From: Clostridia bacterium
GTDB taxonomy: Bacteria > Bacillota > Clostridia > Oscillospirales > Acutalibacteraceae
DNA: 34,081 bases
Reading direction: 5' to 3'
Assembly (NCBI GenBank): GCA_017410195.1
Contig: JAFQRF010000061.1
Location: 1 to 34,081 of the forward strand
The translations under genes were made by a program, and so were the position numbers. The notes under the pieces are model-generated. The model saw nothing but the letters and a program-made list of their open reading frames with translations, was not told the DNA's origin and searched no databases. This document shows positions 28,167-34,081 of the stretch, in pieces. The first letter of the stretch is position 1. Each line of letters opens with the position of its first letter.

Positions 28167-28218
28167 AAAAATATCACTTTCATTGTCAACAATATACTGC
28201 GTTTGTAAAATTAAATTT

Positions 28219-28248
28219 ATTTTATCACATTTTTATCGGCATTGTCAA
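28219..28248 (-). promoter_or_regulatory. Promoter of the rlmI / PI-PLC / PfkB operon
   Basis: On the minus strand TTGACA (28248-28243) and TAAAAT (28224-28219) are separated by 18 bp, about 50 nt before the ATG at 28166. Confidence 0.7.
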
Positions 28249-28260
28249 CGGATTGGCAAA

Positions 28261-28276
28261 GTTAGTGAATACTAAC
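28261..28276. promoter_or_regulatory. Operator-like palindrome GTTAGTGAATACTAAC
   Basis: Two perfect 6-nt arms (GTTAGT and ACTAAC) around GAAT. The shape resembles operators of TetR/MarR-type repressors in Clostridia. It lies 12 bp upstream of the rlmI-operon -35 and about 100 bp upstream of the hydrogenase -10. No such regulator is encoded in the window. Confidence 0.4.
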
Positions 28277-28372
28277 CGTTCAAAAAGGAATAAATATACA
28301 AAAAATACATAAAAAAACCCTTTAAATCGTGAAAAAAATATCGATAAAAAAGTAGCATTTTCTATAATTGTA

Positions 28373-28381
28373 TGTTATAAT
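28373..28381 (+). promoter_or_regulatory. Candidate extended -10 promoter of the hydrogenase operon
   Basis: TGTTATAAT is a perfect extended -10 with no good -35; a second TATAAT lies 13 bp upstream (28363-28368). The leader to the hydC ATG at 28469 would be about 80 nt. Confidence 0.5.
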
Positions 28382-28468
28382 GACTTAGAATGCAGGATTG
28401 CGGCATTTACGTCTGCAGACCTGCGGATAATAATCTGTTTAAATTTTCATTCAGGAGGAATGACTTAG

Positions 28469-28963
28469 ATGGTTAAGAAAATCAGCAACCTGCCTTTTAC
28501 AGGCACTCCCGAACAGGAAGCACAGCTCAAGGCTATCATCGCAGAATGCAAGGATGATAAGAGCATGCTTATGCACGTTATGCAGGAAGCACAGAACATT
28601 TACGGCTATCTGCCCATCGAGGTTCAGACCATGATTGCAGACGGCATGAACGTTCCCCTTCAGAAGGTTTACGGCGTTGCAAGCTTCTATGCTCTGTTCT
28701 CACTCACTCCCAAGGGCAAGTACAACGTTTCGGTTTGCCTCGGTACTGCTTGCTATGTTAAGGGTTCACAGGAAATTCTTGATAAAATCTGCGAAGTTCT
28801 CGGCGTTGAACCCGGCGAATGCACAGAAGACCTCAAATTCTCGGTTGAGGCTTGCCGCTGCATCGGTGCCTGCGGTCTTGCCCCCGTTTTCACAATCAAC
28901 GAAGACGTTTACGGCAGAGTAACTCCCGACGAAATTCCCGACATCCTCGCAAAATACAACTAA
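28469..28963 (+). CDS. hydC: NuoE/HydC-like [2Fe-2S] subunit of NAD-dependent [FeFe]-hydrogenase
   Basis: A 164-residue thioredoxin-like ferredoxin subunit. Helical N-terminus (about 15-70, MHVMQEAQNIYGYLPIEVQ), then the [2Fe-2S] ligands C90-x4-C95 and C131-x3-C135. In HydABC and related complexes this subunit works with the NuoF-like HydB and hydrogenase HydA to bifurcate electrons between ferredoxin and NAD(H). The same fold serves complex I and formate dehydrogenases, but the hydrogenase-type cassette and HydB-like gene downstream favour HydC. AGGAGG precedes the ATG. First gene of the locus; seven genes separate it from HydB. Confidence 0.92.
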   Translation: MVKKISNLPFTGTPEQEAQLKAIIAECKDDKSMLMHVMQEAQNIYGYLPIEVQTMIADGMNVPLQKVYGVASFYALFSLTPKGKYNVSVCLGTACYVKGSQEILDKICEVLGVEPGECTEDLKFSVEACRCIGACGLAPVFTINEDVYGRVTPDEIPDILAKYN

Positions 28964-28997
28964 TCTTTAACCGCAAAGCGGAAAATGAGGGATTGAT

Positions 28998-29354
28998 ATG
29001 ACTATCAACAACATTAAAGATTTACTCGGCGCAGAGGTTCTGTGCGGCAGCGAGCATCTTGAAAACGATGTTCATTCTGCCTGCGGAAGCGACATGATGA
29101 GCGACGTTCTTGCATATGTAAAGAATCAGGCGGTGCTTTTGACGGGACTTGTCAATGCGCAGGTTATCCGTACCGCAGAGATGATGGATATGATGTGCGT
29201 TGTTTTTGTGCGTTCGAAGCGACCTTCGTCCGATATGATAGAGCTTGCAAACGAGTGCGGCATCGCAGTGCTGACCACTCCGCTGCGCATGTATGATGCT
29301 TGCGGAATTCTCTATTCGAACGGGCTGAGAGGAAACGGTGAATCAAATGGCTGA
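28998..29354 (+). CDS. Single-domain DRTGG protein, first copy
   Basis: A 118-residue protein consisting of one DRTGG-type domain: MTINNIKDLLGAEVLCGSEH at the start, a VLAYVKNQAVLLTGL strand-helix, MCVVFVRSKRPSSDMIELAN, and GIAVLTTPLRMYDACGILY. DRTGG domains occur beside CBS domains and in phosphotransacetylase N-termini and are thought to bind ligands or proteins, not to catalyse. Its stop overlaps the next gene by 8-17 nt, depending on the start chosen there. A second DRTGG protein lies after HydS. Such small DRTGG proteins are recurrent neighbours of clostridial NADH-dependent hydrogenases. Function unknown. Confidence 0.82.
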   Translation: MTINNIKDLLGAEVLCGSEHLENDVHSACGSDMMSDVLAYVKNQAVLLTGLVNAQVIRTAEMMDMMCVVFVRSKRPSSDMIELANECGIAVLTTPLRMYDACGILYSNGLRGNGESNG

Positions 29355-29769
29355 ACCCTTGGTATTCCGATTTGATGTTGACGGTGACAATTTCACCTCT
29401 GCGGGTCAGGCTTCGGTGCAGGTCAAAAAGAATCTGCGTCAGCTCGGCATCGACCCGGAAACAATCCGCCGCGTTTCGATAGCTATGTATGAAGGCGAAA
29501 TCAACATGGTTATCCACGCAAAGGGCGGTCAGGCGGATGTTATCGTCAGCGACGGATGTATTGAAATAATTCTGGCAGACAAAGGTCCCGGAATCGCAAA
29601 CATCGAGCAGGCTATGCAGGAGGGCTTCTCAACCGCCCCCGACAATATCCGCTCTCTCGGCTTCGGCGCCGGCATGGGTCTGCCCAACATGAAAAGATAT
29701 ACCGATGAAATGCAGATTGATTCGGTTGTAGGCGAAGGAACAACCATCACTATGAAAGTAAAGTACTGA
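29347..29769 (+). CDS. RsbW-like GHKL ATPase / serine kinase-type protein
   Basis: A 140-residue stand-alone histidine-kinase-type ATPase domain of the anti-sigma/RsbW type. N-box is YEGEINMVIHA (N53), G1 box is DKGPGI (78-83), and G2 is GFGAGMGLPNMK (105-116). RsbW-type proteins phosphorylate serine of a partner or sequester a sigma factor; no partner with a STAS domain or sigma factor is visible here. The ATG at 29347 gives a conserved-looking MAEPLVFRF start, while GTG at 29338 is closer to GAGAGGA (29327-29333); both overlap the DRTGG gene, so translation is coupled. It directly precedes the HydS-like gene. Confidence 0.85.
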   Translation: MAEPLVFRFDVDGDNFTSAGQASVQVKKNLRQLGIDPETIRRVSIAMYEGEINMVIHAKGGQADVIVSDGCIEIILADKGPGIANIEQAMQEGFSTAPDNIRSLGFGAGMGLPNMKRYTDEMQIDSVVGEGTTITMKVKY

Positions 29770-29799
29770 GCCTGACGAATCGGGAAGGAGTGTATTTTT

Positions 29800-31098
29800 A
29801 TGAATACATACATTCATTCGGTTGCTCTTGACCCGAGCAAATGTACCGGCTGCACAACCTGCATGAAGCACTGCCCGACCGAGGCAATCAGAATCCGTAA
29901 CGGCTGCGCCGTTATCGATTCCGAGCGCTGCATCGACTGCGGCGAGTGCATCCGTAATTGCCCCAACAACGCCAAAAAGAGTATTTGCAACTCTTTTGAC
30001 GAAATCAAAAAATACAAATTCAAAATCGCATTGCCCGCACCCGCACTTTTTGCTCAGTTTGATAATCTTGACAACATAGGCTATGTGCTTCAGGGTTTGC
30101 TTGATATCGGATTTGACGATGTGTTTGAGGTTTCAAAGGGTGCCGAGCTTGTTTCGTCATATACCCGCCTCTATCTCCAGACCGAGGGAATCAAAAAACC
30201 TGTTATCAGCACGGCATGTCCCGTTGTGACACGACTTATCGTGCTGCGATTCCCGTTCCTTAAGGATAACCTTATTCCTCTTCTGCCTCCCATGGAGGTT
30301 GCCGCAAGGCTCGCAAGAGAAAGAGCGTTAAAAGAGCATCCCGAGCTTAAAAGAGAGGATATCGGAGTTTGCTTTATTTCTCCGTGTCCCGCAAAGATGA
30401 GCTACGCAAGGAACGGCTTCGGAAGCTACAAGAGTGAGGTTGACCTGGTAATTTCAATGAGCGAAATTTACCTTCAGCTTATCAATGTTATGAAGCGTGA
30501 AAAGCTTTGCGAGGTTTCGAGCGAAGCAGGAAGAATCGGTCTGAGCTGGGCGATATGCGGCGGCGAAGGCTCCGCACTTTTCAACGACAAAATTCTTGCG
30601 GCGGACGGAATAAACAACGTTATCTCCGTTCTCGACCAGATAGAGGACGGCAACATTCCTCCGATTGATTTTGTTGAACTTAATGCTTGCCCGAGCGGAT
30701 GCGTGGGCGGAGTTCTGACAATTGAAAATCCCTATGTTGCCAAAAACAGACTTCATACCTTAAGACGTTATATGCCCGTTTCTCTCAATAAATCAGAGGA
30801 TGATGAGGGATATATCCCACATGAATGCTTCTTTACCGACCTGCCGAATTATAATCCGCTCAACAGACTGAGCGATAACATCGGCGAATCTATGAGACTT
30901 ATGTCAAAGATTCAGGCGGTGCGCAAGGAGCTTCCGGGCATCGACTGCGGCTCGTGCGGCGCACCGAACTGCCGTGCTTTTGCAGAAGATATCGTCATGG
31001 GGCATGCAGACAGAAAAGACTGCGTAATTGCTTATAAGGAGCTTCTTAAAAGGTATCTCAACGAAAACAGCGGAGGTGATTCGGTTGACGGTGAATGA
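29800..31098 (+). CDS. hydS: Sensory-type [FeFe]-hydrogenase (HydS-like, group C/D)
   Basis: The 432-residue protein has two N-terminal [4Fe-4S] motifs (C15/18/21/25 and C44/47/50/54), a hydrogenase core, and a C-terminal ARC-like cluster motif (C383, C386, C391, C408 in CGSCGAPNC). All four H-cluster cysteines remain: C140 (L1, TACP), C196 (L2, SPCPAK), C297 and C301 (L3, ACPSGC). The proton-relay cysteine of TSCCP is A139, and the two Met near the cluster are S194 and N295. These changes mark putative sensory hydrogenases such as Thermotoga HydS, which turn over slowly. Unlike group C members it has no PAS domain. It sits between kinase-like and DRTGG genes, so a sensor of H2 or redox is the best inference. 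Confidence 0.85.
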   Translation: MNTYIHSVALDPSKCTGCTTCMKHCPTEAIRIRNGCAVIDSERCIDCGECIRNCPNNAKKSICNSFDEIKKYKFKIALPAPALFAQFDNLDNIGYVLQGLLDIGFDDVFEVSKGAELVSSYTRLYLQTEGIKKPVISTACPVVTRLIVLRFPFLKDNLIPLLPPMEVAARLARERALKEHPELKREDIGVCFISPCPAKMSYARNGFGSYKSEVDLVISMSEIYLQLINVMKREKLCEVSSEAGRIGLSWAICGGEGSALFNDKILAADGINNVISVLDQIEDGNIPPIDFVELNACPSGCVGGVLTIENPYVAKNRLHTLRRYMPVSLNKSEDDEGYIPHECFFTDLPNYNPLNRLSDNIGESMRLMSKIQAVRKELPGIDCGSCGAPNCRAFAEDIVMGHADRKDCVIAYKELLKRYLNENSGGDSVDGE

Positions 31099-31405
31099 GC
31101 TTGCAGCTATGCCCGGATTCAAAACCGTTTCCCTGCCCGACGGTGATCGTGAAATAAATAACATTTATATCGGCGACCTGCTGAGCTGGGTTATGGGCAG
31201 AGCAAAGGCTGACGGTGCATGGATAACGATTATGTCCAACATCAACATCGTTGCCGTTGCATCCCTTGCCGATGTTGCATGCATAATTCTCGCAGAGGGC
31301 GTGACTCTTGATTCAACCGTTGCACAGACGGCGGAAATGAAGGGCGTCAATGTTCTTACATCGGATTTGCCCGCCTACGAAACGGCAATGCTTCTTAAGA
31401 TATGA
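31085..31405 (+). CDS. Single-domain DRTGG protein, second copy (TTG start)
   Basis: A 106-residue DRTGG-type domain: MTVNELAAMPGFKTVSLPDG, IYIGDLLSWVMGRAKADGAW, NINIVAVASLADVACIILAEG and GVNVLTSDLPAYETAMLL. The start is TTG at 31085, 8 nt after GGAGG (31072-31076); it overlaps the HydS-like stop by 14 nt and gives a start matching DRTGG relatives. A GTG at 31091 is less well spaced. The stop overlaps the PHP gene as ATGA. Paralogous to the 28998 gene in fold but clearly diverged. Probable ligand- or protein-binding partner of the HydS module. Confidence 0.8.
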   Translation: MTVNELAAMPGFKTVSLPDGDREINNIYIGDLLSWVMGRAKADGAWITIMSNINIVAVASLADVACIILAEGVTLDSTVAQTAEMKGVNVLTSDLPAYETAMLLKI

Positions 31406-32136
31406 AGAAGAAATACTACTACGATTTGCATATGCACTCCTGCCTGTCGCCCTGCGGCGACGACGATATGACTCCGAATAACATTGCAGGCATGGGCGTT
31501 ATCGCAAAGCTCGATATCATGGCTTTGACCGACCACAACACCTGCCTCAACTGCCCCGCATTTTTCAAGACGGCGCAGGCAAACGGAATCGTACCTGTTG
31601 CAGGCATGGAGCTGACTACTGCGGAAGATATCCACCTCGTCTGCCTTTTTGAGCAGCTTGATGATGCGCTGAAATTCAGCGAAACGGTCAATCTCCGCAG
31701 AATACCCTTTAAAAACCGAGTTGATATTTTCGGCCAGCAGATGATAATGAACGAAAACGACGAGGTTATCGGAGTTGACGATTATCTGCTTTCGAATGCG
31801 ACGCAGATAACGGTTGACGAAGCGCCGGCACTTGTGAATTCATTCGGCGGAATTTGCTACCCTGCCCACATCGACAGAGAAGCAAACGGAATTGTCGCCA
31901 CCCTCGGCGTTTTCCCCAATATGCCGTTCTTCCCGTGTGCAGAGCTTCACGATTCCGATAAAAAAGATGAATATATTAATAAATTCCCGATTCTTGCGGA
32001 CAAGCCGTTGGTTATCTCTTCCGATGCTCACTATCTGTGGGATATAAACGGCAGGCTCAACTGCTTTGAGCTTGACGTTGAAGAAGAAACTCCCGAAAAC
32101 ATCCGCAAAAAGCTTTTCGAAAGGCTCAGGGGATGA
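31402..32136 (+). CDS. PHP-domain metal-dependent phosphoesterase
   Basis: A 244-residue PHP (polymerase and histidinol phosphatase) domain protein. Metal-binding motifs: H10 and H12 in DLHMHSCLSPCGDDDMTP, D44/H45 in LTDHNT, E70 and H78, H156 in YPAHIDR, and D208/H210 in SSDAHY. These form a trinuclear site typical of phosphoesterases. It is full length. The 4-nt ATGA overlap with the DRTGG gene implies coupling. Its last codons and TGA stop (32134-32136) lie inside the left end of a MITE-like element, so the native C-terminus may have been trimmed or extended slightly. A role reversing phosphorylation by the nearby GHKL proteins is speculative. Confidence 0.9.
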   Translation: MKKKYYYDLHMHSCLSPCGDDDMTPNNIAGMGVIAKLDIMALTDHNTCLNCPAFFKTAQANGIVPVAGMELTTAEDIHLVCLFEQLDDALKFSETVNLRRIPFKNRVDIFGQQMIMNENDEVIGVDDYLLSNATQITVDEAPALVNSFGGICYPAHIDREANGIVATLGVFPNMPFFPCAELHDSDKKDEYINKFPILADKPLVISSDAHYLWDINGRLNCFELDVEEETPENIRKKLFERLRG

Positions 32137-32402
32137 CGAAAACAGTCGAAACGTGCCTTAAAAGGCATCTTTTCGGCAAATCAAGGCTTATCGTCTTTGC
32201 AAGGTTTAACCTTGCGGCATCCTCTGCACCCTGATTTTCTCGAAAATCTGCTCTTTTAAGGTCGAAGATTTTTCACGGAGAAGATTTTCGTTCATCCGAG
32301 GCACAAAACGCAGCAAATCCTGACGGATTTGCGAGTATTTTAACGAAGGAGGAGTGGAAATCAGCCCGTGAAAAACAGGTTTAGACTATTTCCGTCATCC
32401 CC
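32129..32402. mobile_element. MITE-like element, 274 bp, 24-bp terminal inverted repeats
   Basis: The left end (32129-32152) and right end (32379-32402) are inverted copies matching at 21 of 24 positions; the outermost nine (GGGGATGAC / GTCATCCCC) are identical. A possible 2-bp target duplication CA flanks it (32127-32128 and 32403-32404). The interior has no gene but several hairpins: GCAAGGT-TTA-ACCTTGC (32199-32215), GATTTT-CTCG-AAAATC (32233-32248), and GCAAATCC-TGAC-GGATTTGC (32313-32332). It sits exactly between the PHP and ATPase genes of the hydrogenase locus. Without a transposase it would be non-autonomous. Confidence 0.7.
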
Positions 32403-32405
32403 CAT

Positions 32406-32957
32406 ATGAAAGAATTATCATTGAACATTCTTGATATCGCAAAAAACTCAGTCAAGGCAAAAGCTGAGAATATTCTTATAAAGCTCGACGAAACTGACGA
32501 AACCCTGACTTTAACAATCAAGGATGACGGTTGCGGAATGAGCGAAGAAACGGTTCAGAATGTTATGAACCCGTTTTACACAACGCGAACAACAAGAAAT
32601 GTCGGCATGGGTGTTCCGCTTCTCAAGCTTGCGGCGGAGCAGACGGGCGGAAGCATAGAAATCACATCCGTCTGCGAAAACGACAGCCCCGAAAATCACG
32701 GAACAACGGTCACGGCGGTTTTCTTCAAAAATCATCTTGATTTTACTCCGCTCGGAGATGTTATTTCAACCGTAACGGTGCTGATTCAGGGTTCGCCCGA
32801 TATCGACTGGAAGTTTGTTCACACGCTGAAAGGCGAAAGCGTTGAGCTGGACACAAAGGAGCTTCGTGAGGTTCTCGGCGATGTTCCGCTTGACAGCTAC
32901 GAGGTTATAAAATGGATAGAGGACTTCCTTAAGGAAGCCTATGACTCCGTTTCATAA
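32406..32957 (+). CDS. GHKL-type ATPase, second in the hydrogenase locus
   Basis: A 183-residue protein with a single histidine-kinase-like ATPase domain (about 1-112): N-box LNILDIAKNSVKAKAENI (N14), G1 KDDGCGM (40-45), and the TTRTTRNVGMGVPLLKLAAEQ lid with G2 at 67-70. A short C-terminal domain (about 113-183) of unknown type follows. It lacks a dimerisation/phospho-acceptor His domain. The start MKELSLNILDIA is typical of the family. No Shine-Dalgarno is visible within 20 nt of the ATG because the MITE-like element ends 4 bp upstream. Role probably regulatory, as for the first GHKL protein. Confidence 0.85.
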   Translation: MKELSLNILDIAKNSVKAKAENILIKLDETDETLTLTIKDDGCGMSEETVQNVMNPFYTTRTTRNVGMGVPLLKLAAEQTGGSIEITSVCENDSPENHGTTVTAVFFKNHLDFTPLGDVISTVTVLIQGSPDIDWKFVHTLKGESVELDTKELREVLGDVPLDSYEVIKWIEDFLKEAYDSVS

Positions 32958-32989
32958 TACAATAAATAATTAAAGAGAGGATAGATGTT

Positions 32990-33361
32990 ATGAAATCATT
33001 GGCTGAGCTTGCAGCAATCAGAGAGAAGATGAAGGATAAGGTTGTTCTTCGTGAAGGCAGCGGCGAAATCAGAGTTGTTGTCGGCATGGCAACCTGCGGC
33101 ATCGCAGCAGGCGCAAGACCCGTTCTCAACGCATTTGTTGAGGAAGTAGGAAAGGCAGGACTTGCAGATAAGGTTACCGTTTCGCAGACAGGCTGCATCG
33201 GCGTTTGCCAGTACGAACCCGTTGTTGAAATCTTTGAAGCAGACAAAGAAAAGGTTACCTACATCAAGATGACTCCCGAAAAGGCAGCCGAGGTTGTTGA
33301 AAAGCACCTCAAGGGCGGCAAGGCTATTCAGGAATACACAATCAGCAACGCTATCTCATAA
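32990..33361 (+). CDS. Thioredoxin-like [2Fe-2S] ferredoxin next to HydB
   Basis: A 123-residue protein of the family encoded immediately before NuoF-like hydrogenase subunits. After a charged helix (1-25) it has VVVGMATCGIAAGARPV with C36 and TVSQTGCIGVCQYEPVVEI with C69 and C73. Only three cysteines fall in the cluster region, which is usual for this family. It likely relays electrons within or to the HydABC-type complex. AGAGAGG precedes the ATG. HydB starts 16 nt downstream. Confidence 0.88.
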   Translation: MKSLAELAAIREKMKDKVVLREGSGEIRVVVGMATCGIAAGARPVLNAFVEEVGKAGLADKVTVSQTGCIGVCQYEPVVEIFEADKEKVTYIKMTPEKAAEVVEKHLKGGKAIQEYTISNAIS

Positions 33362-33377
33362 TGGAGGTTAAATAATT

Positions 33378-34081
33378 ATGATTCGTTCCCATGTATTGAT
33401 TTGCGGCGGTACCGGCTGTACTTCATCGGGCAGTAAGGTACTTATGTCCACTTTTGAAAGCGAAATCGAAAAGAACGGTCTCGCCGAAGAAGTAAAAGTT
33501 GTTCAGACGGGCTGTTTCGGTCTTTGCGCCCTCGGCCCCGTTGTTATCATTTATCCTGAAGGCACTTTCTACAGCCGCGTTCAGGAAGCAGACGTAGCAG
33601 AAATCGTTTCCGAGCATCTTCTCAAGGGCCGTCTTGTTGACAGACTTGTTTACAAAGATGCAGACGAAAGCGTTATTGAAGAAGCAGGCAAAACAATTTC
33701 TCTTAACGACACCAACTTCTATAAGACCCAGAAGAGAGTTGCTCTTCGTAACTGCGGTCTTATCGACCCCGAAAATATTGATGAATACATAGCTATGGAC
33801 GGCTATGCAGCTCTCGGTAAGGTTCTCACAGAGATGACTCCCGAGCAGGTTGTTCAGGTTGTCAAGGATTCAGGTCTCCGCGGCAGAGGCGGCGGCGGTT
33901 TCCCCACCGGTCTCAAGTGGAGCTTCACAGCAGCAAACGCAGCAGACCAGAAGTATGTTGTTTGTAACGCTGACGAAGGTGACCCCGGCGCATTCATGGA
34001 CCGTTCGGTTCTTGAAGGAGACCCCCATTGCCTTATCGAAGCTATGGCAATCTGCGGCTACGCAACAGGCGCAACCGAAGG
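33378..34081 (+). CDS. hydB: NuoF/HydB-like NADH-binding flavoprotein subunit, 5' part
   Basis: 234 codons are present; the gene leaves the window at the right edge. The N-terminal thioredoxin-like domain has C9, C14, C46 and C50, as in Thermotoga-type HydB. After a linker (about 85-125) the NuoF fold begins with the NADH-binding loop [16 protein letters not shown] (167-181), then [21 protein letters not shown] (FMN site). In the bifurcating HydABC complex this subunit carries FMN and exchanges electrons with NAD(H). GGAGG (33363-33367) precedes the ATG. The HydA gene is expected downstream. Confidence 0.93.

Follow-up and report, generated by a model that had tools for sequence, protein, structure and literature searches.

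How does a sensory-type [FeFe]-hydrogenase that carries no PAS domain pass on its signal? Papers on TamHydS from Thermoanaerobacter mathranii, which is a group D (M2e) [FeFe]-hydrogenase, pose this as a question (PMC8163306, PMC13104023), and the locus studied here raises it again. The window, a stretch of 34,081 nucleotides from a Clostridia bacterium that spans one complete contig (JAFQRF010000061.1), contains within its last 5.6 kb nine closely spaced genes on the same strand, among them those for a group D-like hydrogenase (HydS) and for two subunits of the bifurcating-type hydrogenase HydABC. Five of the nine, here called module 1, encode in this order a DRTGG protein (DRTGG-1), a SpoIIAB/RsbW-like ATPase, HydS, a second DRTGG protein (DRTGG-2) and a PHP-domain phosphoesterase. 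Module 1 is well supported as one physical unit conserved across the phylum. We estimate a probability of about 0.6 that it is an H2/redox-responsive switch, in which HydS gates a dedicated SpoIIAB-type kinase that acts on DRTGG partners and is opposed by the PHP protein. The cassette is a real, phylum-wide unit, probably a signalling one; its kind is known in part, its partners are undescribed.

Matches to HydS at E<=1e-40, from a search that scored part of its first-look candidates, were present in 184 of 391 genomes at class level and, phylum-wide, in 160 of 398 sampled, where a few of the weakest may fall outside group D. We then surveyed the loci on 80 named contigs and 120 hand-picked diverse loci from 84 families, these being roughly one per genus, with matches well inside contigs, and selected from longer match tables. 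Immediately upstream of HydS, the diverse loci showed the ATPase in 116 cases and DRTGG-1 in 105; downstream, DRTGG-2 followed directly in 115 and PHP was present in 104. All five genes were contiguous in 96 of the 115 diverse loci with enough flank on both sides, in 70 of 81 families (labels entered by hand from tables), and in each of the 50 assessable close relatives. Conserved linkage, a test named in an initial annotation of the window, is borne out by the survey, to which natural fusions of neighbours are added below.

Module 1 genes are also inherited together, as revealed by comparing 40 HydS-plus genomes with 40 HydS-minus genomes hand-picked from listed misses. The cassette-type ATPase (>180 bits) occurred in 40/40 and 2/40 genomes, respectively, and so did DRTGG-1 (>100 bits), two more HydS-minus genomes giving weaker matches to it (72 and 42 bits); PHP (E<=1e-20) was found in 38/40 and 0/40. 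Co-loss, also named as a test in the initial annotation, is partial. The two HydS-minus genomes with the cassette-type ATPase are G578, which keeps several members (see below), and G104, whose hydrogenase may fall in an assembly gap, because the contig stops right after the ATPase gene. Rearranged sets also exist. For instance, G574 has DRTGG-2 and a 57-residue PHP piece ahead of HydC-GHKL-Fd-HydB, and G693 and G722 group DRTGG-1, DRTGG-2, PHP and GHKL on another contig; in G722 (locus L119), as in L136, a response regulator gene precedes ATPase and HydS (the L136 regulator was domain-scanned). Loci L235 and L236, which sit between folC-type and radC/mreB genes (the latter two confirmed by scan in L235 only; Rex adjoins in L236), hold DRTGG-1, DRTGG-2, PHP and GHKL but no hydrogenase. 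Besides a short HydS operon, genomes G850 and G587 carry an additional, fuller cassette elsewhere.

Neighbouring members are naturally fused in several species. Over 220 loci, DRTGG-1 was fused to the ATPase in six, HydS to DRTGG-2 in two and PHP to GHKL in three; ATPase-hydrogenase fusions also occur naturally, and in three loci the ATPase carries CBS domains. From structure models, judged by their predicted template modelling score, we infer that domain placement is not random; the alignment behind the ATPase-HydS model is wrong over about the first nine residues of its HydS-only rows.

Gene calls in the window, from open reading frames and Pfam/NCBIfam scans, confirmed the order from the NuoE-like to the NuoF-like gene given in the initial annotation. 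The features are as follows.

28167..28468, + strand: operon promoter region, with an extended -10-like TGTTATAAT kept in most close relatives aligned
28469..28963, + strand: HydC/NuoE-like thioredoxin-fold [2Fe-2S] subunit, module 2 (PF01257, 174 bits; conserved linkage)
28998..29354, + strand: DRTGG-1, module 1 (PF07085, 33.4 bits, cut-off 25.2)
29347..29769, + strand: SpoIIAB/RsbW-like GHKL ATPase, module 1 (HATPase_c_2, 44.7 bits; alternative start GTG 29338)
29800..31098, + strand: group D-like [FeFe]-hydrogenase HydS, module 1 (two Fer4, Fe_hyd_lg_C, C-terminal FeS)
31085..31405, + strand: DRTGG-2, module 1 (PF07085, 28.9 bits, above cut-off; putative TTG start)
31402..32136, + strand: PHP-domain phosphoesterase, module 1 (PF02811, 40.8 bits, cut-off 26.4)
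32129..32402, no strand assigned: insertion between PHP and GHKL resembling a miniature inverted-repeat transposable element (MITE), with terminal inverted repeats; absent in L033
32406..32957, + strand: GHKL ATPase lacking HisKA, bridging the two modules (HATPase_c, 61 bits)
32990..33361, + strand: thioredoxin-like [2Fe-2S]-type protein, module 2 (PF01257, 30.2 bits; three invariant Cys)
33378..34081, + strand: HydB/NuoF-like subunit, truncated by the contig end (Complex1_51K)

The most likely start of DRTGG-2 is TTG 31085, preceded by GGAGG and overlapping hydS. The two DRTGG matches of the whole window genome both lie inside the cassette. The HydS of the window shows, in domain scans, two N-terminal [4Fe-4S] (Fer4) motifs, an H-domain and a C-terminal FeS domain, with no match to PAS in Pfam/NCBIfam. 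All sixteen of its cluster cysteines, among them those of the C-terminal Cx2Cx4Cx16C at 383/386/391/408, are conserved at 1.00 among 200 relatives. According to the available text of PMC8163306, group D differs from group A in lacking Cys at C299 and having Ser/Thr for M353 (CpI numbering); the window protein has STACP (A139) and ISPCPAK (S194) there, as matched by motif and not by structure. Likewise, the charged residues R30, R32, E392, D393, D378 and D403, reported as conserved in 70 group D proteins (PMC13104023, accessible part), find counterparts in R31, R33, E396, D397, D382 and D407 by position relative to the cysteines. A 52-row tree, which has no TamHydS row, groups the 31 rows from cassettes in a single clade (support 100/99) beside 8 group C-like rows and apart from 13 HydA rows. 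By these sequence characters, the cassette hydrogenase belongs with group D (M2e). The initial annotation had compared it to HydS-type sensors that usually bear PAS; PAS is, in the sources available, a group C feature and group D the class without it. The group C-like branch is the sister of the cassette hydrogenases in the tree. The H-cluster can probably be made in this organism, because its genome encodes HydG.

The partners of HydS retain the motifs of their families. SpoIIAB and RsbW are the nearest solved relatives of the ATPase by sequence and fold (family profile against SpoIIAB structures, E about 3e-12); it has a predicted Bergerat fold with intact ATP-site residues, and E52, N56, D81, G83, G85 and GxGAGMG are 99-100% conserved (numbering from GTG 29338). 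DRTGG-1 passes the Pfam cut-off and has the DRTGG fold; its residues D32, S35 and T49 are 98-99% conserved among 184 relatives, Ser35 being placed at a helix start in the L123 structure model. In PHP, positions H10, H12, D44, H45, E70, H78, H156, D208 and H210, which we take to be putative metal ligands, are 98-100% conserved among 179 relatives. This degree of motif conservation is consistent with the ATPase and PHP being active enzymes.

How these pieces might work together can be outlined as follows. By analogy with TamHydS, for which reversible H2 turnover and an H2-induced conformational change are reported in the accessible parts of PMC8163306 and PMC13104023, the cassette HydS would equilibrate with H2 and change conformation. 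Through physical coupling with its neighbours, the SpoIIAB-like ATPase on one flank and DRTGG-2 on the other, it would gate the ATPase, which would serve as a dedicated Ser/Thr-type kinase. DRTGG-1 would be the regulatory partner of the ATPase, binding nucleotides and/or accepting phosphate, a place that CBS domains may take in some species. PHP, as a phosphatase or nucleotide phosphoesterase, would reset the signal, and GHKL and the DRTGG proteins could carry the output to whichever electron-handling enzyme is linked, usually HydABC and in some genomes Rnf. The initial annotation had proposed that such a switch could act by reversible modification on HydABC or a transcription factor. We consider it possible, though doubtful, that this goes as far as a phospho-switch of a separate kind, with a SpoIIAB-type kinase gated by a catalytically tuned hydrogenase, DRTGG in place of STAS as the dedicated partner and substrate, PHP as the reset, and H2/redox plus adenylate inputs setting HydABC/Rnf flux. 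The candidate phospho-acceptors would, in that case, be Ser35 of DRTGG-1, which hardly varies, and the matching residue of DRTGG-2.

The same proteins could instead exert second-messenger control, with DRTGG and CBS domains binding adenine nucleotides, PHP hydrolysing the ligand, the ATPase acting as a nucleotide-dependent binding switch and not as a kinase, and HydS adding a redox input. The CBS-bearing ATPases point this way, as do the solved relatives of DRTGG-1, one of which is the CBS-DRTGG region of a pyrophosphatase from C. perfringens, the published response of CBS-pyrophosphatases to adenylates and diadenosine polyphosphates, and the resemblance of PHP to nucleic-acid-processing PHP enzymes. 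We regard this explanation as rather unlikely: CBS domains appear in three loci only, the ATPase retains its motif set and SpoIIAB fold, and a look by eye through the 45 commonest neighbour clusters of 140 loci recognised no enzyme that makes nucleotides. A classical anti-sigma partner switch, where the ATPase sequesters a sigma factor, an unlinked STAS protein counters it and HydS adjusts the balance, would agree with SpoIIAB and RsbW being the closest solved relatives, yet it seems highly improbable. The ATPase falls short of the NCBIfam equivalog cut-offs (TIGR01925, 63.5/135 bits; PRK04069, 21/145 bits), its constant neighbours are DRTGG proteins, and inspection by eye of those 45 clusters recognised no sigma or STAS gene, unlinked partners not having been searched.

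Position next to HydABC might also suggest that the cassette genes are assembly or structural accessories of this enzyme, without a signalling role. HydB was downstream on the same strand in 79 of the 106 loci flanked by 8 kb or more on each side, and elsewhere in 7; in the other 20, however, it was not in the fetched stretch, and in four loci (L161, L164, L167 and L209) module 1 is directly followed by rnf genes (names confirmed, five subunits). HydABC is thus not the only partner. Of 140 neighbourhoods, 20 contain RnfC-type genes, and the cassette can also stand alone. Moreover, HydB-like genes (E<=1e-30) are present in 26 of the 40 HydS-minus genomes, a set in which cassette genes are almost never found. 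A purely accessory role is therefore improbable.

Several observations weigh against the gated-kinase switch that we favour. At least one module 1 member is missing from its place in 19 of the 115 diverse loci, PHP and DRTGG-1 most often. Four loci of family f125 (L146, L147, L150 and L246) read HydS-DRTGG-Fd-HydC-HydB-HydA, and the ATPase, DRTGG-1 and PHP were not found near HydS in them; G578 keeps DRTGG-1-ATPase-DRTGG-2-GHKL where HydS and PHP are missing. Fifteen other HydS-minus genomes have weaker ATPase matches (48-59 bits), which are probably SpoIIAB/RsbW. The DRTGG parts of the fusions in L123 and L130 score 21.5 and 22.2 bits, under the Pfam cut-off of 25.2; by the profile of the cassette itself they are strong, with 134 and 122 bits. 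In TamHydS, the C-terminal cluster is not reduced by H2, according to the accessible text, and the relay is therefore not simple electron transfer to that cluster. To these add the lack of a recognisable STAS or sigma gene among the clusters inspected and of any match to a Rex gene in the window genome, which is 93.6% complete. Mean-field direct coupling analysis on operon-paired alignments was discarded as a line of evidence: all ten pairs yielded more strong links than when shuffled, and contact is not separable from shared history.

Module 2, usually downstream of module 1, comprises HydC, GHKL, the thioredoxin-like protein, HydB and HydA. The commonest arrangement, DRTGG-ATPase-HydS-DRTGG-PHP-HydC-GHKL-Fd-HydB-HydA, was exact in 43 of the 120 diverse loci, and that of the window, with HydC in front, in 15. 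Nesting between HydC and HydB, put forward in the initial annotation, holds for the window and for all close relatives showing both genes, but among the diverse loci this order is in the minority, with 15 of 79 against 64. GHKL and the thioredoxin-like protein, initially ascribed to the signalling cassette, mostly adjoin HydC/HydB, although three loci have GHKL fused to PHP. The window GHKL shows no HisKA, HATPase matches being the only ones at E<=0.01. GHKL was present in 184 of 213 HydS loci and, in a genome search that covered the HydS-minus set, in 5 of 40 genomes (E<=1e-10). The thioredoxin-like protein has three invariant Cys columns (36, 69 and 73), not four, among 172 relatives, which corrects its initial description as a [2Fe-2S] ferredoxin. 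As to the 269 bp between PHP and GHKL, in L033, whose HydS is 97% identical to that of the window, the PHP stop overlaps the GHKL start. The element in the window has 46-nt imperfect terminal inverted repeats (72%) and a partial copy elsewhere in the genome (G000:C84:2271-2394; 77% over 123 bp), and it is plausible, as first proposed, that a MITE separated this overlap.

Rex genes were found in 13 of 140 fetched neighbourhoods, 8 of them directly upstream in the same direction (two members scan-checked). Of 190 operons, 26 have upstream a match to a Rex consensus at 12 or more of the 14 positions; shuffles, which cover composition, predict 1.95, and 27 of 2025 other genes have such a match, a control that includes coding upstream sequence. 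The window promoter region has a weak Rex-like box (28242-28259, 11/14), no better than chance there, and Rex control was rejected for this operon, on that box and the missing Rex match, and kept for other genomes.

Hydrogenase domains are also joined to other signalling proteins nearby. Eight of 140 neighbourhoods have a group C-like hydrogenase on the chain of a histidine kinase, a sigma-54 activator or a chemotaxis receptor. For example, group C-like [FeFe]-hydrogenase and sigma-54 activator fusions lie near cassettes at L163:12656-14941 (also with a Fis-type helix-turn-helix), L120:17088-19499, L127:2-2233 and L121:17619-19601; L141 has a hydrogenase-PAS-histidine kinase with an NtrC-type partner, and L119 a hydrogenase-methyl-accepting chemotaxis protein. 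Hydrogenase domains in sigma-54 activators are already in print (PMC6615313, accessible part). In these chains the hydrogenase fold is a pluggable sensor; for group D, the ATPase seems to be the plug.

The survey names likely partners, orders them through natural fusions and supplies fused proteins suited to purification, and the question of the group D signal relay therefore becomes directly testable. Many of the 160 HydS-bearing genomes among the 398 are fermenters, where H2 release affects product yield.

Several known systems resemble parts of the cassette. Group C (M2f) sensory [FeFe]-hydrogenases such as TmHydS, proposed as H2 sensors, have PAS or another signalling domain within the same polypeptide, whereas in the cassette the outputs are separate neighbouring proteins. 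The cassette ATPase differs from the SpoIIAB/RsbW Ser kinases in its unmet equivalog cut-offs and in the lack of a recognised STAS or sigma partner, and the DRTGG proteins stand alone, unlike the CBS-DRTGG region of family II pyrophosphatases, with no pyrophosphatase among the members. In Acetobacterium woodii, HydABC is accompanied by HydD, a subunit without predicted cofactor (PMC6288185, accessible part), for which GHKL and the three-Cys protein are candidate counterparts at cassette loci. Searches of the literature on DRTGG, and on hydrogenase with DRTGG, PHP, anti-sigma, kinase or group D, a scope that excluded most subscription papers, returned no description of the module or its fusions. 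The accessible parts of Thermoanaerobacter and C. thermocellum papers do describe, upstream of bifurcating hydrogenases, a group D-like hydrogenase with a histidine kinase, or kinases, phosphatases and PAS sensors. TamHydS is the closest likeness: as described in the available text, it shares with the cassette HydS two N-terminal [4Fe-4S] motifs, the H-domain, the C-terminal Cx2Cx4Cx16C, the absence of PAS, no Cys at C299 and Ser at M353, and it adjoins a bifurcating hydrogenase and a histidine-kinase-like ATPase. Those accounts differ in reporting an AraC regulator and, in the parts available, make no mention of DRTGG/PHP partners, fusions or Rnf linkage. In these sources, the placing of a group D hydrogenase next to HydABC and to a histidine-kinase-like ATPase is already on record, and the DRTGG/PHP module and its fusions appear in none of them.

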